Below are positions 7,878 to 63,123 of a stretch of 64,000 nt of DNA, piece after piece (the stretch's first letter is position 1; each line of letters begins with the position of its first letter). Position numbers and translations under genes: made by a program. This stretch comes from Acidobacteriota bacterium. GTDB taxonomy: Bacteria > Acidobacteriota > Terriglobia > Terriglobales > Acidobacteriaceae. Location: contig QIAP01000056.1 of the NCBI GenBank assembly GCA_003225075.1, forward strand, positions 1 to 64,000, in the 5' to 3' direction. The notes under the pieces were generated by a model that searched no databases, was not told the origin of the DNA, and saw nothing but the letters and a program-made list of their open reading frames with translations.

Positions 7878-8311
7878 TGCAGAGTCCGGCAAATTACGCC
7901 ATCTTCCCTGTCATCAATGCCACGCTCAACGGCACCAGTGCCGTGCTGCTGGTCGTGGGACATCGCTTCATCCAGCGCGGCCGTATGGCTGCCCATCGCG
8001 CCGTCATGCTCACGGCATTCGTCACTTCGAGCTTGTTTCTGATGTCGTATCTTTACTACCATTTCCACGTCGGATCGGTTCGGTTTCCTGGGCACGGCTG
8101 GTGGCGGCCTGTCTACTTCACCATCCTGATCTCTCACACTATTCTCGCGGTGGCAATCGTGCCGCTGGTCATCATTACTTTGACGCGCGCACTGCGCGAG
8201 CGTTACGACCGCCATCGCGCCATCGCCCGTTGGACGTACCCACTGTGGCTATATGTCTCGGTAACGGGCGTAGTGATTTATTTCATGCTCTATCACTTAT
8301 TCACAGCGTAG
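7874..8311 (+). CDS. ctaM: DUF420 membrane protein, CtaM-like oxidase assembly factor
   Basis: 145 residues, four hydrophobic helices, with conserved His residues (YYHFHVGS, ISHTILA, YHLF). This matches DUF420/YozB, known as CtaM in Firmicutes, where it is needed to mature heme-A-containing oxidases. Two tandem ATG codons (7874, 7877) are in frame; the first overlaps the permease stop as ATGA. The frame is open back to 7580, but that part shadows the permease. It closes the ctaA-ctaB-ABC-ctaM cluster, and this context supports the oxidase-assembly call. Confidence 0.85.
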   Translation: MMQSPANYAIFPVINATLNGTSAVLLVVGHRFIQRGRMAAHRAVMLTAFVTSSLFLMSYLYYHFHVGSVRFPGHGWWRPVYFTILISHTILAVAIVPLVIITLTRALRERYDRHRAIARWTYPLWLYVSVTGVVIYFMLYHLFTA

Positions 8312-50979: not shown

Positions 50980-53475
50980 TCATCTGGGACTGTCCCGAAC
51001 CGGATCCTCTCCCTGATGCGCGACCGGCCCGCCAGACAAATTCACGTGCATCTCGGTGTCGTCGGGCCGGGTCATTTCCATCGCCCAAATCGCGGCTGGG
51101 CGCATATACATTGAAGCACGGTAATTCCCGGTGATGTCCCAAGCCTCAGGCGTGCGGAACCAATAGCCCTTAGTTTCATAAGTCACGTGGAAAATACCTC
51201 GGGCCGTGTGGTAGGCCTGGTCTTTCATTCCTTCACTGAGGAGCAGCGCGGCCAAGCCAAATGTCGTCCCTGTCCACACCTCTTGAATCTGTTCGTTGGT
51301 TTTGATGATGGAGCCATTGTCGGCAATGCCGTTCACCGCCCCCATCTCTCCGCCGGCAAACTTCATGACATTAAACGCGAAAATCTTTCCGAGAGCCTTC
51401 AGCCGCATTTCGCGCGGGATTAGATCACCAAGGCCGGTCATGTTGGCATACCACTGTCCAGCAAGCTGATCCGCCTGGATACTGTTCCGGTAATCGCTTT
51501 CCGTGTCGTAAGAGAAACACTCGCCATTCCACAGCTTGCCGATGTAGGTGTTTTGGCCCTTCAAAAACATTCCGTGGTATTGCGCCGCGGAATCAACCTC
51601 GCCTAGAACTTTTGCCATCTCTTCGGACGCGCGCAGGGCGGCCAACCACAAACCGCCGGAGTAGGCGCTCGGACCGCGTACAACCCATGTATCGTAGGTT
51701 TGGTCCGGATATCCCTCATTTTCCGGTAGACCTCCACCATGGTCGTACTGCTGAAGGTAGCGCATCGCCTCTTTCACCGCAGGCCAGGTATAGCGGAGGA
51801 AAGCGAGATCCTTTCTTTGGGTCAAAACGAAGTCGCGGTAAATCATGAGCACGAACTTCGAGTTCAAATCCTTCCACCCGTTCGTGTCCTGCCAGGCAAA
51901 TTGATTTACGTCGAAGAATGGATCCTCTTCAGGCACGCCCAGATCATGGGGAACCGCTCCCTTTCTCTTGCGAACGCGTAACGTGAGATCGCCTGCCTGT
52001 TGCGACTTCCAGACCCACAATCCTTTTTCCGGCAACTCGTGGGGCACAGTATCCGCAAACTGACGCAACACCTGTTTGTCTATGTCCGGCCAGAATTTAG
52101 CGAGGGGCATGGAACCGTAGAAACGCACATCCAAGGTTGCATAGTAGGGATAATCGAAGCATTCCATGAATGCAAACGTAGCCGGCTCCTTCTTGTCGGA
52201 TCCAATCGGGCGTCCCCAGAAGGAACCTCCATCCGCTATCGTATAGAGTTCGTTGAAGAGCATGCCGCGGTACCAGAGCGGCTTACTCTCATCGTTGACG
52301 TAAGGAGCTTGCCAGGCATCAATTTTGTCGCTCCACACAGCCGACTGGAGCAGACCGTCGCGGGCTATGCCCCAGGTATTTGTTCCGGTGGTTCCGTAGA
52401 AATCGGTGTAACGGCGATACCACTGACGTCCCGAGCCGAACGCGACGATGGGCAGGTCCCACGAAATGACCATGGGAATGACGCGTTTCTCACCGGGCTT
52501 TAGCGTGAAGCGTACAGCGATTGCGCCGGCGAGTTTCTCGCCACTGCTGACCCAGGCTTCATCGCTGTTGGCGAGTCTTCCGTCCTTAGCGAAGGGCTTC
52601 CATATGGATTTTCCGTCGCCTTCTGCCTCAAAGGTTGTCTGATAGCTGACTTCCACGCCAGGCGACTCCAAGGCTGCGATGGCGAACTGCCCATCCCATT
52701 CATTGGGAACAGTGCCGGCGCGATTGTGTTCGAACACAATCCCTTTCATGGCCTCAGCCGGGCCCAGAGATTCATTGGCGAAGCGGTTGTGGTTTCCTTG
52801 ATTCAAAGCTCCCGTGAAGTCCCGAGAAAAAGTGCGGAACCACCCCAACATGTTCGTCCATGAACACAAGACGGATACGGTGACAGTTTTGCTGGTCGGG
52901 TTTGCCGCATGCCAGCGATAGACCGCAACCGGATAGCTTGACTCCCGGTAATTGTCGGGAAGGATAGGAGAAAACTGCTCCAGGACAACATGCGCCGGAA
53001 ATTTCTCCCACCGGTAGTCAAACCAAGACTTAGGATAGAGCGCGTAATAGTCGCCCGCGCCCACGGGATAATCCCACTCCCAACTGCTCAGTTGGCCTCC
53101 CGAAGGATGGTCGGTGAAAAGAACGCGTGCGGTTCCTGTGGCCGCGCCCTCGGTCTGCTGAAACATCGCGAATTGATTGGCGTTCACCGTGTGATATTTG
53201 TGTACGCCGGCTTTGATGTGCCATCGCGCAAAATCGCCTCGGAAGGTTCGGGAAAACGTGCCTGCCCCGAATCCGCCCACCGGCGCACCTTGCCAGAAAC
53301 CGTCATCGATGTGACCCGCGTCCAAAGAAGGTTTTTTTGTGCCGGCATTTTCCAAAGGTTGCCCGATGGCACGCTTCCAAGCTGCTTTGGGGATGTTTTC
53401 GCCGCTCCATGCCGTAAGGGTGAGGGTGCAGAGGATGAACAAAAGGGTAGATCGTCGACGCACGTACGTGTTCAT
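50980..53475 (-). CDS. GH116-family beta-glucosidase / glucosylceramidase-like enzyme
   Basis: 831 residues from ATG 53475, which has GGAGG just upstream and gives a signal peptide (LLFILCTLTLTAWS); the frame is open to 53643. An N-terminal beta-sandwich (GAGTFSRTFRGDFARWHI) precedes the (alpha/alpha)6 barrel of non-lysosomal glucosylceramidases. The nucleophile Glu is in FNELYTIADGGSFW (about 52,213-52,258) and the acid/base Asp in PDQTYDTWVV (about 51,680-51,715), with GPSAYSGGLWLAAL after it. Probably a periplasmic or secreted beta-glucosidase, or one acting on glycolipids or xylosides. It has its own promoter with a LacI-type operator. Confidence 0.9.
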   Translation of the reverse strand: MNTYVRRRSTLLFILCTLTLTAWSGENIPKAAWKRAIGQPLENAGTKKPSLDAGHIDDGFWQGAPVGGFGAGTFSRTFRGDFARWHIKAGVHKYHTVNANQFAMFQQTEGAATGTARVLFTDHPSGGQLSSWEWDYPVGAGDYYALYPKSWFDYRWEKFPAHVVLEQFSPILPDNYRESSYPVAVYRWHAANPTSKTVTVSVLCSWTNMLGWFRTFSRDFTGALNQGNHNRFANESLGPAEAMKGIVFEHNRAGTVPNEWDGQFAIAALESPGVEVSYQTTFEAEGDGKSIWKPFAKDGRLANSDEAWVSSGEKLAGAIAVRFTLKPGEKRVIPMVISWDLPIVAFGSGRQWYRRYTDFYGTTGTNTWGIARDGLLQSAVWSDKIDAWQAPYVNDESKPLWYRGMLFNELYTIADGGSFWGRPIGSDKKEPATFAFMECFDYPYYATLDVRFYGSMPLAKFWPDIDKQVLRQFADTVPHELPEKGLWVWKSQQAGDLTLRVRKRKGAVPHDLGVPEEDPFFDVNQFAWQDTNGWKDLNSKFVLMIYRDFVLTQRKDLAFLRYTWPAVKEAMRYLQQYDHGGGLPENEGYPDQTYDTWVVRGPSAYSGGLWLAALRASEEMAKVLGEVDSAAQYHGMFLKGQNTYIGKLWNGECFSYDTESDYRNSIQADQLAGQWYANMTGLGDLIPREMRLKALGKIFAFNVMKFAGGEMGAVNGIADNGSIIKTNEQIQEVWTGTTFGLAALLLSEGMKDQAYHTARGIFHVTYETKGYWFRTPEAWDITGNYRASMYMRPAAIWAMEMTRPDDTEMHVNLSGGPVAHQGEDPVRDSPR

Positions 53476-53545
53476 TGAACCTCCGGGATTCGCCCGCACA
53501 CTCAAGGCTCGCAACAGCGCCATCAGCTTGTACGAAATCAGGCAA

Positions 53546-53574
53546 ATGATAGGAGAAAACCGGTATTCTAGCAA
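53546..53574 (-). promoter_or_regulatory. GH116 promoter with LacI-type operator in the spacer
   Basis: Minus strand: TTGCTA (-35, 53574-53569), 17 bases, TATCAT (-10, 53551-53546). The spacer contains GAATACCGGTTTTC; on the plus strand this is AACCGGTATTCTAGC, identical over 15 bases to the site at 61898-61912. A repressor bound here would block RNA polymerase. It lies about 70 bp before the GH116 start codon. Confidence 0.7.
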
Positions 53575-53645
53575 TCTAATTAGGTAGCGTAGAACAACGG
53601 AAGCGGAAGAAAATTCACTTCGAATGGTTGCCCGCGTTGCCAAAA

Positions 53646-56009
53646 TTAGGGCTTGTCCATCTCCAGGCTTTCGCGCTTCTTTAGCCTGTTGGCCTCTATC
53701 AGTTTCTGGTAAGCCGCCACCGCCTGTCCGGCTTCCTGCACGCGACCCGCGCGACGATAAGCCTGGCTCAATTGAAAGTATACGGCGTCGTGTTCGGGGG
53801 CAAGCTTTTTGGCCCTTTCCAGGCTCTCAATGGCGCCGGCGGCGTCTCCCTGCTGCAGCAGGGCGCGCCCCAGTTCGAAGTGAGCCAGTTCATAGTCGGG
53901 CATGGCCTTGACAGCCTCGCGCAACAGACTAATAGACTCTGGCAGCTGGCCTTGCAAGAGCAGCGTGTAGCCAAGATGGTACAGCGTGTGGAGATCGCCT
54001 GGGCGAAGGTCGAGTTCGGCGCGAAATTCCCGCGCGGCGGATTCGAACTCCTTCTGCCGGAGATAGACTAGACCGGCGTAGTAGTGAGCTTCTGGAAGCC
54101 GGGGATCGAGCCGCGAAGCGTTGCTAAGCTCGTTGACGGCGCTCGCGTAATCCTCCTGTTGCGCGTAGGCCTTGCCAAGCAAAAGGTGGACCGAGGGGTT
54201 GTCAGCATTTTGCTCCAGCAGCCGGCGAAAAATACCAGCAGCAGCTCCCGGTTGGCGGGTGCGGACCAGAGCGGTGCCCCACGCCAGCAGCAGACCAGCA
54301 TCGTCGGGTGGATGTTCGAGAAAGGGGTGGAGAACTTCAACGACTTTCTCATCTTTCTCCAACATGGAATAGCTGAGGCCCAGAAGTTGGCGGATGAAAG
54401 AGTCGTCAGGATGGGCTTTGAGTTGGCGCTCGAGGGGTGGAACAGCTTCCAGGTAGAGCTCGGCGCGGAAACTGGCGAATCCCCAGTTGAGATCCAACCC
54501 GGGGAGATCGGGCTTCCATGCGGCAGCCTGCCTGAAAAACTCGGCAGCTTCTGGAAATTTCGAGTCTTTGGCCCGCATCACGCCCAGGTCATTATAGGAA
54601 CTGCCCAGGATTTCTCCGACAAATGAACGGTATTGCTTGGCTGCTGCTGTTTCTTTTGCTGTGGCCGGCTGCTTGCCCACTGGGCCCACGGGCAAGCCCT
54701 GCCGGATCATATTCTGCGTGCCTTGTTTTTCCTCAGCGGAACCTGCCCCTAGCAGGTCAGCAACGCGGTCCGAAACGCGACTCTCGCCGGCATCTTCCGA
54801 ACTTTTCTTCTCGTCGAAAATGTGCTTCACATCGTACTTGAACTTCGCTTCTCGTATCTGCTGGGAGCGTGCCAGCGCTTTCCTGGCCTCCTCCTCGCGA
54901 CCGAGCCGCCGCAGATTCTGCCCGAGCAAGTAGTATGCGCGGCTGGCCTCGCGTAGCTTGTCTTCTTCCGGGTTGCCCACCATGCTGACGTACTTTTCGA
55001 GAACTTCGACCGCGGCCTTGATGCGATTCGTTGCCGCGTAGGTTTCGCCCAGATAGAGGTAGACGGAAGCCTCCTTAGGCCGCAGCCGCGCTGCGTGGAG
55101 AAGAGCAACTTCCGCGGCCGGAAAGTCGCGCAAGTTCACGTTCGCAATCCCCAGAAGTTCCTGTACTTGATATTCATCGGGATGCAGCTTGACTTCTTTT
55201 TCGAATTCCTGGCGCGCCTGTGGGTAACCTTCTTCCTGATAGTGCTCGAGATAGGCGTACCCGAGAAAGCCGTGAGCGCGGGGATACTTCGGATCAAGCC
55301 TGATCGCCTGGCGAAATTCAGGGATAGCCTGCTGCGGGATCTTGGCCACCAGGTAGGCCCGGCCAAACAGCATATGCAGCGCCGCCGATTCTCCCATCGT
55401 GGAGTGAAGTTGATGGAACCACGCCGAGGCTTCGGCCAACTTCCTTGCCTTCAAATAGGCAATCCCAAGAAAATAGCCGGTTTCGAAATCATCCTCGAGA
55501 TCTACCGAAGCCTTCAACTCCTGGATCGCATTATCGGAATCCCCCTCGAACACGTAGATTCGACCGAGGAGTCCACGTGCCCGGGCATGGCTCGGCTGTG
55601 TGGCCACAAGAGATTTCAGCAACGTCTTCGCTTTGGCGACTTGTCCGTTGCGGAACCAAACGCCAGCTGCATCCAGCTGAGTTTCGACGTCATCCGGCTT
55701 GAGCCTCAGCGCGGATTCTAGATAAGTAGCAGCCTTATCGGTCTGTCCCAGGGAAAGAGAGATTTTTGCGAGCTGGCGCAAACCGAGCACGATCGCGTCA
55801 ATGTAATGGCTTTCCGCCGAGGCAAGATCGCCCGCCGCCAAGGAGGCCTTGGCCGCCTCAAACTGCGCCTGGAGTTCCTTGGCAGGATTATCGGCTGCTC
55901 GAGCGGTGGGAATAAACGACAACGCCAGCGCAGCGACCACCATGAGGCTTGCCGGGACGCGCCTCCAGAAGCCGTTCAATGGGATAGCTCGATTACGAAC
56001 CGAAGGCAT
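53646..56009 (-). CDS. Secreted TPR-repeat protein
   Basis: 787 residues from ATG 56009, which has GGGGA seven bases upstream; a TTG at 56069 overlapping the previous stop (TTGA) is the alternative and would give 807. A signal peptide (SLMVVAALALSFIPTARA) is followed by about 17 TPR units in two blocks (about 60-400 and 500-770), separated by a charged linker with EEKQGTQNMIRQG. TPR motifs such as AHYYAGLVYLRQKEFESAAREF are clear. It is probably a periplasmic scaffold. It is always beside CRTAC1-like proteins in such acidobacterial loci as far as I know, and forms an operon with that gene here. Confidence 0.88.
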   Translation of the reverse strand: MPSVRNRAIPLNGFWRRVPASLMVVAALALSFIPTARAADNPAKELQAQFEAAKASLAAGDLASAESHYIDAIVLGLRQLAKISLSLGQTDKAATYLESALRLKPDDVETQLDAAGVWFRNGQVAKAKTLLKSLVATQPSHARARGLLGRIYVFEGDSDNAIQELKASVDLEDDFETGYFLGIAYLKARKLAEASAWFHQLHSTMGESAALHMLFGRAYLVAKIPQQAIPEFRQAIRLDPKYPRAHGFLGYAYLEHYQEEGYPQARQEFEKEVKLHPDEYQVQELLGIANVNLRDFPAAEVALLHAARLRPKEASVYLYLGETYAATNRIKAAVEVLEKYVSMVGNPEEDKLREASRAYYLLGQNLRRLGREEEARKALARSQQIREAKFKYDVKHIFDEKKSSEDAGESRVSDRVADLLGAGSAEEKQGTQNMIRQGLPVGPVGKQPATAKETAAAKQYRSFVGEILGSSYNDLGVMRAKDSKFPEAAEFFRQAAAWKPDLPGLDLNWGFASFRAELYLEAVPPLERQLKAHPDDSFIRQLLGLSYSMLEKDEKVVEVLHPFLEHPPDDAGLLLAWGTALVRTRQPGAAAGIFRRLLEQNADNPSVHLLLGKAYAQQEDYASAVNELSNASRLDPRLPEAHYYAGLVYLRQKEFESAAREFRAELDLRPGDLHTLYHLGYTLLLQGQLPESISLLREAVKAMPDYELAHFELGRALLQQGDAAGAIESLERAKKLAPEHDAVYFQLSQAYRRAGRVQEAGQAVAAYQKLIEANRLKKRESLEMDKP

Positions 56010-56065
56010 GGGATCGTCCCCGGAATTTCTGAGCCGCCGCCCACCATCGAAGAAGTCGGGCGCGT

Positions 56066-57916
56066 TCAACGAGCGCCGGTCGGCGCGTGGTCTCCCGAAG
56101 ACAGGGACGGCAGCGGCTTTCTGTCCTGAATTCCTTTCCCTTCCACCACTGTATAAATATAGTCGCCAGCAACATCACGAAGCGGCTCAACATTCCCATT
56201 CGGCCAGCGAATCTGGACCGATTCCATCTTATCGGTGGTGCCCAGTCCGAAGTGCAAGCGCAAGTCGTTCTGCGATAGATAGCTTCCTCCGCCACGCACT
56301 TCACTGAATTGCTGGGCGCCGGCGGCGCGGATGGTCACCCGGGCGCCAATCGCGGCGCGGTTGCTTTTTGTGCCGATGAGCTTGAACAGGACGCGGTGAT
56401 AGCCGTCGGCATTCATATTCTTGAGGAGCGAAGGTGGTTCGCCGACATTTAAGAGAAGAACGGCGATATTTCCGGTGTTGAAGACGTCGCCGAAAGCGGC
56501 GCCGCGGCGGGAATGCAGAGGGAGAGCGGCGAGGCCGGATTCCTTGGATACTTCGTCGAAAGTACCATCACGATTATTGCGATGGAGGAGGAGCGGCTCA
56601 CGATAGCGGGGACCGGTCTCCAAAGTGTCGATCTGCGGATACACGTGGCCGTTGGCTACAAACAGGTCGAGCCAAGTATCGTTATCCATGTCAAAGAAAG
56701 CCGTACCCCAGCCAACGTAAGGATAGCCAGGCTGGCCTACTCCGGAAGTCCAACTCACATCATCGAATCCCTTGGCGCTCATGTTGCGATACAGCGAATT
56801 GGGCTGCTCTTCAAAGTGGGTAACAAAAAAGCTCAAGCGCCCGCTGTGGTCGTAGTCGCCAAAATCCACGCCCATGTTCCCAAGTTCCAGCCCTTCCCCG
56901 CTCAGCGCGACACCGGTCAGTAAGCCGACATCGGTGAATGTTCCGTTGTGATTGTTGTGATAGAGATAGTTGGGCACGGAGTCGTTGGCGACCAGGAGAT
57001 CGGGCCAGCCATCGTCGTCGTAATCGGCCCACATCACGCCCAGGCCATAATAGCCGATGTCATCGTGGACGCCGGCTTTGACTGAAACCTCTTCAAAAGT
57101 CCCGTCACCGCGATTGTGGTAGAGAAAGTCGGATTCACCTTCGAGCCCCCAGGGGCCACACTGCACCAGGATGCCTTTGAATCGGCAGAATTTGTTGCTG
57201 CCGAATTGGGGAAGGTTGTTGATGTCCAAATGCGAATAGCGGGCGACGAACAAGTCCACGTTGCCGTCGCGATCGTAATCCCCCCACGCTGCGCCGGTGC
57301 TGAACCCTCCACCGCGGACTCCGGCCTTCTCGGTGACATCCTCGAATTTGCAATTGCCCAGATTGTGGTAGAGCACGTTGCCGTTGTAGCCGGTCACAAA
57401 CAGGTCGAGCTTGCCGTCGTTGTCGTAGTCAGCGACGGCAACGCCCATACCCCATCCCAGCCTGGTCAATCCGGCCTCCTTAGTGATGTCTTTGAAGGTG
57501 CCATTGGGCTCTTGGTGATAAAGAGTCACCATGGGATCGCCGCCCTGGCGCAATCTCTCCACGGTCGAGCCATTCACCAGCACAACATCCAGGCGTTCAT
57601 CGTTGTCGCAATCAAATAGACCGACGCCGCCACTCGTCGAATCAATCACGTAATGCGCTTCGGGGGCGGCTGTGTGCGAAACCGTAAGGCCAACTTCTTT
57701 GGCAATATCTTTGAAAGTCGGGACAGGGGGCAATGCGCTCCGATCTTTCTTGCCTGTGGGAGCGCGCTTTGCGGAGGGCGGCACCGGCACCGGTACACGC
57801 TGAGGCCCTTGTGCCTGCGCCGCCAGAACCTGCGGTACCGCGAGAGTGAAAATCAGAAAACGGATCAGGAGGACAGGTGGTCTTGAAGGATACCCAAACA
57901 TGTATGGTTTAAACAT
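56066..57916 (-). CDS. CRTAC1-like FG-GAP / ASPIC-UnbV protein
   Basis: 616 residues from ATG 57916 (signal peptide LLIRFLIFTLAVPQVLAAQ). Seven or so FG-GAP/VCBS blades follow (VAVADYDNDGKLDLFVTGYNG, WADYDDDGWPDLLVANDS, FFDMDNDTWLDLFVANG), with Asp-rich calcium loops. The C-terminus is an ASPIC/UnbV domain (AIGARVTIRAAGAQQFSEV ... LHFGLGTTDKMESVQIRWPNG). Extracellular or outer-membrane propeller protein; function not established. Its stop overlaps the possible TTG start of the TPR gene, and it follows the receptor gene across a terminator-like hairpin. Confidence 0.9.
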   Translation of the reverse strand: MFKPYMFGYPSRPPVLLIRFLIFTLAVPQVLAAQAQGPQRVPVPVPPSAKRAPTGKKDRSALPPVPTFKDIAKEVGLTVSHTAAPEAHYVIDSTSGGVGLFDCDNDERLDVVLVNGSTVERLRQGGDPMVTLYHQEPNGTFKDITKEAGLTRLGWGMGVAVADYDNDGKLDLFVTGYNGNVLYHNLGNCKFEDVTEKAGVRGGGFSTGAAWGDYDRDGNVDLFVARYSHLDINNLPQFGSNKFCRFKGILVQCGPWGLEGESDFLYHNRGDGTFEEVSVKAGVHDDIGYYGLGVMWADYDDDGWPDLLVANDSVPNYLYHNNHNGTFTDVGLLTGVALSGEGLELGNMGVDFGDYDHSGRLSFFVTHFEEQPNSLYRNMSAKGFDDVSWTSGVGQPGYPYVGWGTAFFDMDNDTWLDLFVANGHVYPQIDTLETGPRYREPLLLHRNNRDGTFDEVSKESGLAALPLHSRRGAAFGDVFNTGNIAVLLLNVGEPPSLLKNMNADGYHRVLFKLIGTKSNRAAIGARVTIRAAGAQQFSEVRGGGSYLSQNDLRLHFGLGTTDKMESVQIRWPNGNVEPLRDVAGDYIYTVVEGKGIQDRKPLPSLSSGDHAPTGAR

Positions 57917-58072
57917 AGACAACTTTTTTCCCCGAGGCAAACCCCAACCCCGGTATCTTCCCGCGCCGCAGCCCATGACGCTCCGCCTTTACAAGGCGAT
58001 TGCTGCACTTCGGCGGGGCCGCAACTTGTCACAGAGGCAAGACGTGACGCGGGAATTTTTCAAAGAAGCCGA

Positions 58073-58116
58073 CAAAAGAGAAACGTCCCGCCAGCGTGGT
58101 TGCCGGCGGGACGTTT
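58073..58116 (-). terminator. Terminator after the TonB-dependent receptor
   Basis: A perfect 12-bp stem, AAACGTCCCGCC (58081-58092) with GGCGGGACGTTT (58105-58116), and a 12-base loop, 22 bp after the receptor stop. On the minus strand it is followed by CTCTTTTG. It would separate the receptor from the CRTAC1/TPR genes or allow reduced read-through. Confidence 0.85.
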
Positions 58117-58137
58117 CGGCATCGGATTGTCCCAGCG

Positions 58138-61100
58138 CTAGAAGGTGATCCTCAGTGAGTACTGAAATTCTCGACTTCGGTCCGATTGCGTGGTTACGGT
58201 ACCTACTTGGGCATTCGGCGTACTGTTCTGGATCGAAACTGCATTCAACAGAGAGGTCGTTGGGTTTCCACTCGCGTCCAGGAACTCGGGACTCGCAGCG
58301 GTGTTCGGAGCGTTGAAGCCTATGTTGTAGTTCACGCCATTTGTAGGGCCGACGGGGTCGCCATACTGCGGATGGTTAAAGAGATTGAAAGAATCAATCC
58401 GGAACTCCGCGTCAATCCGTTCGGTTATATGGAAGTGCTTCGCCAACGACAAATCCACTGTGCGAGTAGGTGGCCCCAGGCAGTCGCCTACCGGTGCGTT
58501 CCCGATGGTGCCCAACTTGAACCCGTCCATGGTGTAACGGTTCGGGTTGATCCATTGGAAGTTCTTAAAGCTGGGGTTTCGGCACGGCTGTCCCGGCACC
58601 AAGTTGGGCCGCTGAGCGTTTCCACCATTGCCGATGCCGGAGGGGTCATTGACATTCGAAATGCCTCCAATAACTGGCGTAAGGGAGTGTCCACTCGAGA
58701 GGGAGACGATCGACGTAATTCCCCAAGAGCCCAGGCTATTCCGGACCAACCTATTCATGTTCTGCAAAGTGGGCAGGTTATAGACCACGTTGGCCGAGAA
58801 AATGTGCGGCCGGTTGAGGGGATTCAGCCCGTAGCCATTTCTCAGATTGAAGGGATCAATAACCAGATTTCCTCCTCCATTGCTGACTTTCAGGAGTGTA
58901 TCCGCGTAGGTTTTGGAGTATGTGTAGGCTAGCTGGAAGGTGGAATTGTGATGGAAACGCGAGGTGAACGCCGTTTGCAGGGAGTCGTACTTGGCGCTGC
59001 CGTGATGCGCAAAAAACGGGATGCTGCCACTTTCTAATGCGTCAAAAGGCTTGAGTGTATTGTCGTTTGCATTCGATTGCGCAAAGGCCAGCCGGTTAGG
59101 CGGAGCAATGGCATTCGCATCAAATTTGCTTGTCCAATTGTGCGTCCGGCTGCCGACGTACCCCACTTCCAACTTCGAATCCTTCCAAACTTCGCGCTGC
59201 ACGGTTCCGTTGAATTGCAAGACGTAAGGGGCACGATCGCTGAGGTCTTGGCCGATGCCGGCGACTCCGAAGCCGCCTTGGCCGAAGCAGTTTGGAGTGC
59301 AGGCGGGAAGCTGGTTGGTGTTGTCCAGGAACCGCCCATTATTGTTAATTGACTGAAAGCTGCGAACGAATGGAGGGTTTGTGCCCGCAGTACCGTCAGT
59401 CACAAAGATGTCATCACGGTTGTAAAACTGACCAAAACCTGCGCGGATAGCCCACTTGTGCGATCCAGTGGGATCCCATGCCACACCCAGCCGAGGGGCG
59501 AAGCCCCAATGAAAATTGTTCTGTATCGCACGGTTGGGTCCGGGGCTGCCACCACCAAGCCCTGTCACGGCACAGGGATTCGACTTGAGGCCCGCTGAGT
59601 ACAACAAACCGTTGCAGGGCGCGTTCCCAAGCGCGGCGTCGAATGCCGTGGGGTTAAATACCGTGAATTGGTCATTCGCCTGGTAGGGATTCGGCAAATA
59701 GGAATAGCGAACACCCATGTTGACCGTCAGGCGATCGTTTACTTTCAGGTCGTCATTGAAATAAAGCTCGAAGTTTTCCCAGCGGCCTTGCTTTTTAAAA
59801 ATGATGTTCTGTTCGCCCCAATTCACTGCCATGTTCTGCAGAATAAAATCGGCAGGACCATAGTGGGTAGTGAAGTCCGTCAGGTTCGTGCACCCTGGAT
59901 CCGTGATGTTCTTGCAGCCGTTGTAACCGTTTGGGCCGAAGGTCACGCCCTGCTTCTGGGAGAAGTTATCCTGGTCTTTGGCATTCCGGCTGTAAATGAC
60001 TCCCATCTTTAACGTATGGCGCCGAACGACCTTTGAGTAGTCATCTTGCCAGGCAAAGAGATCTTCGCGGTTGCTCCAGGGCGCAAAGCTCCAAATGGTC
60101 GGAAGACCGCCGCCATTGATCCACACCGGAGGATTGTTGGCCGGATTCCCCGAAGGCGGGAAAAATGTTGGAATCACCTTATTGAGCGCCTGTGCCGCGG
60201 CTGGCGTCGCTTGGGAGATATTGATGCGATTCCCCGAGTAGGAGAACTGGAAATCGTTCACGGCTGAGGCGCCGAAAACCTTGCTCAAGCGGGCCACGGC
60301 GATGCGCCCTGGCTGGCTCCACGATTCCTGGATCTGGGAAGCTCCGGCATCAGCCCCCCAACCGGTATTGCCCACCGCGGAAGGTCCAAACGACCAGGAG
60401 TCATTGGTGTATTTCAGCATCAACGTGGTCGTCTTGGTGAGATTGATGTCCCCCTTGAAGCTATCTTCGCGATAGAAGGTCGGCTGCTTAAGCGATTTCG
60501 CCCAATTGGTGCCGCAGCCATAGTTAGGAGCCCCCGCAGGAAGCGTCGGCAAAAAATACGTGTTGAGAATCGTCGGCCCGGCTACGCTCAGGCGCCCCGC
60601 AGGAATGACGTCTATTACGCCCGGCGTAGAAGGGGATGCCGTAAACGCGCCGCCAGGATTGGTCGGATCAGGATCCACGAGTCCCCCTTTCAGAAGACAA
60701 CCGCTAGTATTGGCGCTGGCAGCTGAGGGATCCAGAGCAGCGTCAGAGAAGTCCCCGGTGCGCTGCAAGGGCGTGGGTACGTGAGCGCTCTGCACCTTTT
60801 CCGCGATCAGACGGTTCCATTCCTCCGACACAAAGAAAAAGATTTTGTCCTTCTTAATTGGCCCACCGATGGAAAATCCAAAGTCATTTCGGCGAATCGT
60901 ATTCTTCTTGGATGTCGGGTTGAAAGCATTAAGAACGGGGTCCTTGGCATCCAGAACGTCGTTGCGGCCGAAGTAATAGGCGCTGCCGTGAAAATCGTTC
61001 GTCCCCGACTTGGTGACCAGGGAGATGACGCCTCCGCCGGCTCCGCCGAATTGGGCGCCATAGCTGTTCCGCTCGATCTTGAACTCCTGGATGGAGTCGA

Positions 61101-61752
61101 GGGAGGGGTAAATAAGGATGGTGCGATTCGATCCTACGTCGACGTTGTTGGCGCCATCGACCAGAAACAAATTCGCATTCGACGCGCCGCCGCTGACGGA
61201 AATGTCCGCGCCGCCGTTGAGGCCTTTCTTGTCGTAAGAAAAGCCATTATCGACCTCCACGCCGGGAACCGCCAGGAGTAACTGCGCGAAGCTCCGGCCG
61301 TTCAGTGGTAATTCGGTGATCTGGGCACCCCCGACCGTACCGCTCAATTCTCCATTGGCGAGCTCGACCTGGGTCGTCGAGGCGGTTACTTCGACGGTTT
61401 CGGTCCTGGTGCCGACTTTCAACTGGGCGTCCAGCGTCAGGCTATCGTGGACGTGAAGGACAATGTCCTTTTCTTGGAAGTTACTGAAGCCTTCCTTGGT
61501 CACGCTCAGATTGTAGCGACCGATCGGAAGGCTCTGGAACCCGTAGTTGCCGTTCGCATCAGTATTCTCAGTTCGCGAATAACCGGTCTCCACGTTAGTT
61601 ATCGTGACCTGGGCTTGCGCGATGGTTCCGCCCTGCGCGTCCGTCACGGTGCCACGCGCGGAACCCACACCAGCCTGTGCGAATACTGTCGCCGAAAAGC
61701 TCAGCGCCACCACCAACCCAGTTACCAACGCCGCTAATCCCATTCTTTTCAC
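58138..61752 (-). CDS. TonB-dependent receptor, Oar-like, with carboxypeptidase-regulatory domain
   Basis: 1204 residues from GTG 61752, which has GGAGG five bases upstream; ATG 61743 is the next choice. Signal peptide (LVTGLVVALSFSATVFAQ), then a CarboxypepD_reg domain (about 28-115: ARGTVTDAQGGTIAQAQVTI ... SVTKEGFSNF), a plug domain (ITELPLNGRSFAQLLLAVPG, NLFLVDGANNVDVGS) and a large 22-strand barrel ending in a terminal Phe (SLRITF). Takes up large or complex substrates with TonB energy. Divergent from the LacI-type regulator, with two operator-like sites between them. Confidence 0.92.
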   Translation of the reverse strand: MKRMGLAALVTGLVVALSFSATVFAQAGVGSARGTVTDAQGGTIAQAQVTITNVETGYSRTENTDANGNYGFQSLPIGRYNLSVTKEGFSNFQEKDIVLHVHDSLTLDAQLKVGTRTETVEVTASTTQVELANGELSGTVGGAQITELPLNGRSFAQLLLAVPGVEVDNGFSYDKKGLNGGADISVSGGASNANLFLVDGANNVDVGSNRTILIYPSLDSIQEFKIERNSYGAQFGGAGGGVISLVTKSGTNDFHGSAYYFGRNDVLDAKDPVLNAFNPTSKKNTIRRNDFGFSIGGPIKKDKIFFFVSEEWNRLIAEKVQSAHVPTPLQRTGDFSDAALDPSAASANTSGCLLKGGLVDPDPTNPGGAFTASPSTPGVIDVIPAGRLSVAGPTILNTYFLPTLPAGAPNYGCGTNWAKSLKQPTFYREDSFKGDINLTKTTTLMLKYTNDSWSFGPSAVGNTGWGADAGASQIQESWSQPGRIAVARLSKVFGASAVNDFQFSYSGNRINISQATPAAAQALNKVIPTFFPPSGNPANNPPVWINGGGLPTIWSFAPWSNREDLFAWQDDYSKVVRRHTLKMGVIYSRNAKDQDNFSQKQGVTFGPNGYNGCKNITDPGCTNLTDFTTHYGPADFILQNMAVNWGEQNIIFKKQGRWENFELYFNDDLKVNDRLTVNMGVRYSYLPNPYQANDQFTVFNPTAFDAALGNAPCNGLLYSAGLKSNPCAVTGLGGGSPGPNRAIQNNFHWGFAPRLGVAWDPTGSHKWAIRAGFGQFYNRDDIFVTDGTAGTNPPFVRSFQSINNNGRFLDNTNQLPACTPNCFGQGGFGVAGIGQDLSDRAPYVLQFNGTVQREVWKDSKLEVGYVGSRTHNWTSKFDANAIAPPNRLAFAQSNANDNTLKPFDALESGSIPFFAHHGSAKYDSLQTAFTSRFHHNSTFQLAYTYSKTYADTLLKVSNGGGNLVIDPFNLRNGYGLNPLNRPHIFSANVVYNLPTLQNMNRLVRNSLGSWGITSIVSLSSGHSLTPVIGGISNVNDPSGIGNGGNAQRPNLVPGQPCRNPSFKNFQWINPNRYTMDGFKLGTIGNAPVGDCLGPPTRTVDLSLAKHFHITERIDAEFRIDSFNLFNHPQYGDPVGPTNGVNYNIGFNAPNTAASPEFLDASGNPTTSLLNAVSIQNSTPNAQVGTVTTQSDRSREFQYSLRITF

Positions 61753-61827
61753 AGGAACCTCCAGGCAGGTCACTCCAAAAATTTGGCCTTTCGCGATAGT
61801 ACTTTTGCACTACTCCCACGTGCCCGA

Positions 61828-61858
61828 CATTTAGCTCCACATGCCCTTACGTTGTCAA
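61828..61858 (-). promoter_or_regulatory. Candidate promoter of the TonB-dependent receptor
   Basis: Minus strand TTGACA (61858-61853), a 19-base spacer, and TAAATG (61833-61828). The -35 is perfect, the -10 weak and the spacer long. The first operator-like palindrome is just upstream (61876-61865). Confidence 0.35.
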
Positions 61859-61864
61859 GCGAAA

Positions 61865-61880
61865 AATACCGGTATTCTAA
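61865..61880. promoter_or_regulatory. LacI-type operator site 1
   Basis: AATACCGGTATT (61865-61876) is a perfect 12-bp palindrome with a central CCGG, typical of LacI-family operators, and extends to CCGGTATTCTA on the plus strand. Just after it, TAAAAT at 61878-61883 may be the lacI -10, with TTGTCA at 61852-61857 as a -35 at a long 20-bp spacing; the operator would then lie in that spacer. Confidence 0.65.
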
Positions 61881-61895
61881 AATCTTGTGAAATAG

Positions 61896-61912
61896 ATAAC
61901 CGGTATTCTAGC
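61896..61912. promoter_or_regulatory. LacI-type operator site 2
   Basis: ATAACCGGTATTCTAGC. It shares CCGGTATTCTA with site 1 and AACCGGTATTCTAGC with the GH116 promoter. Its centre is 31 bp from that of site 1, about three helical turns, so both face the same side of the DNA. Confidence 0.65.
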
Positions 61913-62034: not shown

Positions 62035-63123
62035 ATGAAAGCGCAGAAGAATGGGAACCGTAAGAAGCCCCGTTCCGTCACCCTGCAAATGGTAGCTGAG
62101 CGCGTGGGACTCACTAAAGGGACCTGTTCCGCGGTGCTGAACAAATCTGCTGCATCGCGGTCAGTTCCGCTGCACACACAAGAGCGAATCCTCACCGCCG
62201 CGCGCGAACTGAACTACAAGCCCAGCTTCTATGCTCTCAACTTGCGGGTAAAGCGCACCTACATGATCGGCGTGGTCGCCGAGGAGATTGGTGATCCCTA
62301 CGGTTCGTTGGTCATCAGCGGCATTGAACGATACCTGCGACAGAAAAACTTCTTTTACTTGACCGTTGCTCACCGTCATGACCCAAAACTCCTTGAAACC
62401 TATTCACACATTCTCATGGAGCGCGGCGTCGAAGGCCTCATTACGGTGGACACATCCATCAACCACCCGTTGCCACTGCCGACAGTTGCCATCGCCGGAC
62501 ACCGCCGCGTGGAAGGCGTCACCAATGTCGTCCTGAATCATCGCCGCGCGGCACGACTGGCGCTAAAACATCTGCGGGAGCTGGGCCACAAGGAAATTGC
62601 CTTCATGAAAGGCTCTCGCTTCAGTTCAGATTCTGAGGACCGTTGGAAGGCGATCCGCGAAGTTGCCCAGGAACTTGGCATTCCCACCCGGATGGAACTC
62701 ATCATTCAACTGGAAGGCGACGATCCCACACCTTATCTGGGTTATCCCTTCGCGAAAAAGCTGCTCGCTCGTAACCGGCCATTCACAGCGCTCTTCGCTT
62801 ATAACGATATTTCGGCGATCGGCTCCATCCGCGCATTCCAGGAAGCCGGACTACGAGTCCCTGAAGATATTTCTGTGGTGGGATTCGACGATATCCAGAT
62901 TGCCGTACATAACAGCCCGAGTCTCACGACCGTGCGTCAACCGCTTCAGAAGATGGGAGAGACCGCGGCCCGCACTTTGCTAAACCGAATCGACGATCCC
63001 GAAACCTACGTGGCGGAGATCCAGATTGAGCCCGAACTTGTCGTCCGCAATTCGACGGCCCGGGCGCCCGACTCAACCTCTTCTCACATTCCGGGATGGC
63101 AATCTGTTCCGCGCTTTCGCTGA
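62035..63123 (+). CDS. LacI-family transcriptional regulator
   Basis: 362 residues from ATG 62035 with AGGAG upstream; ATG 62011 is also in frame. The N-terminal helix-turn-helix reads [22 protein letters not shown], followed by the hinge [12 protein letters not shown]. The periplasmic-binding-protein-like sensor domain runs from [15 protein letters not shown] to [17 protein letters not shown], with [19 protein letters not shown] and [11 protein letters not shown] as family landmarks. It probably senses a sugar and controls the receptor, itself and GH116 through the CCGGTATTCTA sites. It converges with the MFS gene. Confidence 0.93.

Follow-up and report, generated by a model that had tools for sequence, protein, structure and literature searches.

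The near-palindrome in the promoter of the GH116 gene is very probably bound by the LacI-family protein encoded 8 kb away in the same window, the window being the whole 64,000-nucleotide stretch of Acidobacteriaceae DNA that was analysed. The palindrome, its rarity in the genome, its conservation at orthologous places, its co-variation with the repressor and the homology of the GH116 promoter to GH3 promoters of relatives were all established computationally. From these results we infer that a dimer of the LacI protein would sit on the 18-bp palindrome, between the -35-like and -10-like hexamers of GH116, and would keep RNA polymerase off that promoter. A sugar signal, probably a beta-glucan oligosaccharide, would release the protein, and GH116 would then be turned on together with the genes for a TonB-dependent outer-membrane transporter (TBDT), an FG-GAP protein and a TPR protein. 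A pair of operators upstream of the TBDT gene would be spaced for co-operative binding, and GH116 would have come under this LacI because in this lineage it stands in the slot that GH3 holds in relatives. Taken as a whole, we regard this explanation as highly likely.

The palindrome and the GH116 promoter

A 15-mer in the GH116 promoter had been noticed in a sequence-only reading of this DNA to recur 8.3 kb away beside the LacI gene, and so it does: exact copies of AACCGGTATTCTAGC lie at 53558-53572 and 61898-61912, 8,340 bp apart. The motif is real, but its true unit is an 18-bp LacI-type palindrome with the consensus TAGAATACCGGTATTCTA, of which the shared 15-mer is a part and whose near-palindromic halves are TAGAATACC and GGTATTCTA. 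Likewise, the two exact 15-mers had been counted correctly but a third copy had been missed. The 4.79-Mb genome has three copies of the palindrome, all on the minus strand of the window and all with two mismatches to TAGAATACCGGTATTCTA, namely, one at the GH116 promoter (TAGAATACCGGTTTTCTC, 53553-53570) and a pair between the LacI and TBDT genes. In this pair the TBDT-proximal operator, TAGAATACCGGTATTTTT, is at 61862-61879 and the TBDT-distal one, TAGAATACCGGTTATCTA, at 61893-61910, 31 bp from the proximal. The GH116 site was found by palindrome search and with a matrix made without the window, and the pair by these and by alignment of relatives.

The genome searched has 4,789,841 bases in 259 contigs and is 97.6% complete. 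Within it CCGGTATTCTA occurs three times, always intergenic and always in the GH116-promoter and LacI-TBDT gaps; thus the motif is not common in coding DNA, whereas it was commonness there that, by the earlier reading, would have counted against an operator. The matrix was built from 13 sites of five other genomes; with it, in a test that is not fully blind because these sites were first found by their likeness to the window consensus, though their places (LacI-TBDT gap and GH promoters) were no input to the search, the three window sites rank first with 29.2, 25.1 and 24.5 bits, against 8.4 bits for the runner-up in the window and 20.7 for the best of 300 shuffled windows. These scores bear out the earlier judgement that a chance occurrence is very improbable. 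Two exact copies of a short word are weak evidence alone, and they could have been a chance repeat or the trace of a small mobile repeat. We give this reading a negligible probability, since five other genomes have operators at corresponding places and the next best window site is 16 bits lower; these results already contradict it.

The whole-genome palindrome search gave only one further match, with three mismatches. It lies at 7991 on contig C61, upstream of a GFO/IDH/MocA oxidoreductase gene, and was rejected as a fourth genomic site, being a lone three-mismatch match at about background level. None of the ORFs around a similar match on contig C209 of genome G059 is evidently connected with sugar use. 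As a separate observation, the C61 site (G000, 7991-8008; L007 1501-1518) is a strong palindrome, AAGAATACTGGTATTCTT; another LacI gene, for whose product it may be the operator, is about 6 kb away, and two TBDT genes are nearby. One-mismatch matches to the half-site elsewhere in the genome were no more frequent than those of reversed-pattern controls, and neither of the two half-site matches inspected was palindromic.

The GH116 gene (50980-53475, minus strand; 831 aa) starts at the ATG at 53475 with GGAGG a few bases upstream and codes for a beta-glucosidase-type protein. It has the N-terminal PF12215 and the catalytic PF04685 domains and matches 5npf and 5bvu, which we take to be structures of TxGH116 from Thermoanaerobacterium xylanolyticum, over nearly its full length with an E-value of about 1e-250. 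Kept in it are the Glu of ECFDY and the Asp of QTYDTW, presumably the nucleophile and the acid/base of GH116, respectively. Upstream of it, TTGCTA (53569-53574, minus strand), 17 bp and TATCAT (53546-53551, minus strand) are present as had been described, and they are the only sigma-70-like match in 53400-53700, with nine of 12 consensus positions matched. The 15-mer had been placed in the spacer of this putative promoter; it lies mostly there, but it overlaps the -35 by four bases and is not wholly inside. The 18-bp operator fills 16 of the 17 spacer bases and takes in the last two bases of the -35, part of which is therefore conserved as operator. In relatives TTGCTA is also found at the GH3 genes of G006 and G150, and CTACTA in G151, where the gap is one base longer than at GH116. 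The -10, TA(T/A/G)CAT, is kept at all three GH3 genes (TAACAT, TAGCAT and TAACAT). Since TTG and the -10 are outside the operator, their conservation is independent support for a promoter. A protein on an operator that fills the spacer would have to compete with RNA polymerase, and hence repression of GH116 is the best reading of this arrangement.

The LacI regulator and its probable operator specificity

The LacI-family gene (62035-63123, plus strand) adjoins the operator pair; its ORF was listed from 62011, and in the alignment of orthologues they begin at a Met equal to 62035. The protein has a LacI helix-turn-helix (PF00356, 32.9 bits with a cut-off of 27) and a periplasmic-binding-like effector domain (PF13377, 125 bits). 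Its best full-length matches among solved structures are E. coli PurR (E about 1e-36) and Bacillus CcpA, the glucose-resistance amylase regulator (about 6e-30), which are alike in the helix-turn-helix, the hinge and the sugar-binding domain over the full length. It differs from these two in being a local cluster regulator and not a global one, and in its recognition helix and the hinge PSFYALN. Homology to PurR is enough to fix the fold of this protein, as homology to the solved GH116 enzymes is for GH116. In the hinge, PSFYALNL, Leu78 is invariant in four orthologues. It is this hinge-helix leucine that enters the central CpG step in the LacI and PurR structures. The operator is an even palindrome, and a central CG was found in 17 of 18 sites.

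The recognition helix of this LacI and the hinge PSF(Y/H)A(R/L)N are shared by six genomes, namely, that of the window, G006, G150, G151, G059 and G091. All six have operators of the CCGG type in the LacI-TBDT gap, and in all of them except G091 these form a pair 31-32 bp apart. The operator centres are mostly CCGG, with TCGG at the proximal copy in G006 and G151 and GCGG at one copy in G059. The sites found for somewhat more distant LacI proteins, which have the helix TPGTV, TPSTV or TASTV and a PNF.ARS-like hinge, are centred on TCGA or ACGA/ACGT. These comparisons show repressor and operator changing together, and this co-variation may be a single event, the six CCGG repressors being one orthologue group.

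It could be argued that the operator is real but is used by a different LacI protein. Besides the window LacI, two proteins with LacI-type DNA-binding domains are encoded in the genome, making three in all; they are on contigs C45 and C61 and are 37-38% identical to the window LacI, and the near-palindrome AAGAATACTGGTATTCTT is about 6 kb from the C61 gene. We consider this very unlikely because in five other genomes the operators adjoin the orthologues of the window LacI and follow its helix type, and because the C61 site is the single match at about background described above. Thus, the count of LacI proteins in the genome, phylogenetic footprinting in five other genomes and the co-variation of operator with repressor all favour the assignment of operator, promoter and LacI that the sequence-only reading had made.

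A probable take-over of the GH3 slot by GH116

In relatives, the operator has other targets. It precedes GH3 and sits between divergent GH16 and GH30 genes in G006 and G150, in addition to the LacI-TBDT gap, and with weaker matches it precedes GH3 and GH16 in G151. Judged by their enzyme families, these targets point to a beta-glucan utilisation cluster. Multihaem cytochrome-like proteins are also encoded near LacI in the clusters of G006, G150 and G151 (L038 5018-6904 and 12970-14184; L064 11200-12402; L065 11174-12370). No GH3, GH16, GH30 or cytochrome counterparts of the G006 cluster were found in the window, and no GH3 orthologue was found in the window's genome, where the best matches have 27-36% identity.

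Local alignment of the window GH116 promoter with the GH3 promoters of G006, G150 and G151 gave scores of 29.8, 35.1 and 21.5, while shuffles reached 15 to 16.5; the scores for two GH116 promoters, those of G151 and G059, were at shuffle level (13.5 and 10.1). When the operator was left out, the flanks of the GH116 site scored 13.8, 17.5 and 10.0 against the GH3 promoters of the three relatives, whereas no score against the eight GH116 promoters compared or against any other site was above 5.0; the null for these scores (252 values) has a mean of 1.7 and a maximum of 10.0. By these computed comparisons the GH116 promoter-operator appears homologous to the GH3 promoters of relatives, a relation that had been missed in the earlier reading, which was otherwise largely right.

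A CCGG operator within three mismatches is absent from all 26 GH116 upstream regions taken from relatives; in at least eight of them a TACAATAACGATTTTGTA-like site is close to the gene. A LacI paralogue with 59-64% identity is encoded divergently from GH116 in G059, G151 and G032; these loci are on contig C228 of G059, in G151 (L065 17727-21065) and on contig C1 of G032. The TACAATAACGATTTTGTA-like operator with GH116 seems to be a second type of regulon. Both arrangements are in one cluster in G151, where GH3 has the operator type of the window LacI and GH116 has the other type. No close LacI paralogue was found in the window's genome.

We think it likely that in this lineage GH116 has come under the promoter-operator which serves GH3 in relatives, the GH3 gene and the paralogue being missing, and that the enzyme has acquired another regulator through its new position. 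Drawn from one fragmented genome of 259 contigs, the simplest account has GH116 coming to follow the GH3 promoter, with loss, in whatever order, of GH3 and of the paralogue. The similarity to TxGH116 would then not extend to regulation, as the window GH116 would be under the LacI of a TBDT cluster and in the GH3 slot of relatives. If GH116 had not taken over the GH3 promoter, the resemblance would be due to convergence around the operator, where promoter elements may look alike, or to a chimeric contig in an assembly as fragmented as this one. Neither is probable, since in the alignment with the GH3 promoter of G150 the similarity extends from well upstream of the operator to about 17 bp beyond it, and two of the operator-free scores, 13.8 and 17.5, are higher than any of the 252 null scores. 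A long repeat of a kind to provoke misassembly is probably absent from the junction. In the literature searched, no directly relevant case of such regulon rewiring came up.

The LacI-TBDT gap and the mode of regulation

The TBDT gene (58138-61752, minus strand) codes for a transporter of the OMP_b-brl_4 type by Pfam, and the GTG at 61752 behind GGAGG is likelier to be its start than the ORF opening at 61773. It is followed by genes for an FG-GAP/ASPIC-UnbV protein (56066-57976, minus strand), whose copies in relatives' clusters are 63-69% identical, and for a TPR-repeat protein (53646-56069, minus strand), which overlaps the FG-GAP gene and is directly upstream of the GH116 promoter; both were assigned by Pfam. 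This combination (53646-61752) recurs in several relatives' clusters. No SusD family was found by Pfam scans of the TBDT, FG-GAP and TPR genes and the other proteins scanned. Unlike a Bacteroidetes-type PUL with its SusC/SusD pair, the cluster showed no SusD-like lipoprotein in these scans and is not classed as Sus-type. It may nevertheless work like an uptake-and-hydrolysis cluster, and the TPR or the FG-GAP protein might play a SusD-like part.

Three bp downstream of the proximal operator is TTGACA (61853-61858, minus strand), which is identical in five aligned genomes and is probably the -35 of the TBDT gene. A promoter scan had given TTCACA-17-TATTTT, overlapping the operator, as the TBDT promoter, and this was rejected because it is not conserved in relatives. 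Downstream of TTGACAA there is also an element, TAGTGCAAAAGTACTA, with the inverted repeat TAGTAC-N4-GTACTA (61797-61812, minus strand); five relatives have similar elements upstream of TBDT, but within two mismatches there are only two copies genome-wide. The element TAGTACAAAAGTACTA upstream of TBDT was rejected as a genome-wide TBDT element, having two matches.

The operators of the TBDT gene are upstream of the conserved TTGACA, a place that activators also use, and therefore pure repression is not assured there. The LacI protein could be an activator or a dual regulator that represses GH116 and activates or otherwise modulates TBDT from sites whose centres are about 50 and 80 bp upstream of the TBDT start. 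This would fit the TTGACAA and TAAATG downstream of both operators, which are invariant in five genomes, and the lack of conservation of the promoter that overlaps the operator. We hold it to be possible but the less probable reading. The lacI promoter must also be in this gap, where TTGTCA-19-TAAAAT, read in the lacI direction, spans the proximal operator, and the operator pair may therefore be there for auto-repression; besides, most characterised LacI-family proteins are repressors. Repression remains our preferred reading for GH116, and the operator pair may mainly auto-repress lacI or may act on both lacI and TBDT.

The local sugar regulons of the LacI family compiled by Ravcheev et al. 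2014 (PMC4052901), where the operator is defined as an even palindrome with a central CG, resemble this one in the CG-centred even palindrome, the operators beside the regulator gene, the tandem sites and the carbohydrate utilisation targets. In the present case the operator is conserved at orthologous targets in related genomes. The spacing of 31-32 bp is at the peak for tandem sites in that compilation (32 bp), and its authors took the peak as a sign that two dimers bind co-operatively. The target is different, being an OMP_b-brl_4 TBDT with FG-GAP and TPR proteins, and Acidobacteria are not mentioned in the main text of PMC4052901. In the literature searched, nothing directly relevant on LacI with TonB receptors in Acidobacteria came up.

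The mechanism would be that of an ordinary LacI-family operator, and what makes it interesting is a slot that is conserved although its enzyme has apparently been exchanged, together with the change of specificity between paralogues. With a regulator, an operator and targets, a soil Acidobacteriaceae lineage gains a sugar regulon that is supported by sequence. The CCGG and TCGA centres, set against the helix and hinge residues, would be a natural experiment on LacI specificity, and the GH116 promoter would be a case of a promoter-operator that stays put while the enzyme behind it is swapped for one of another family.
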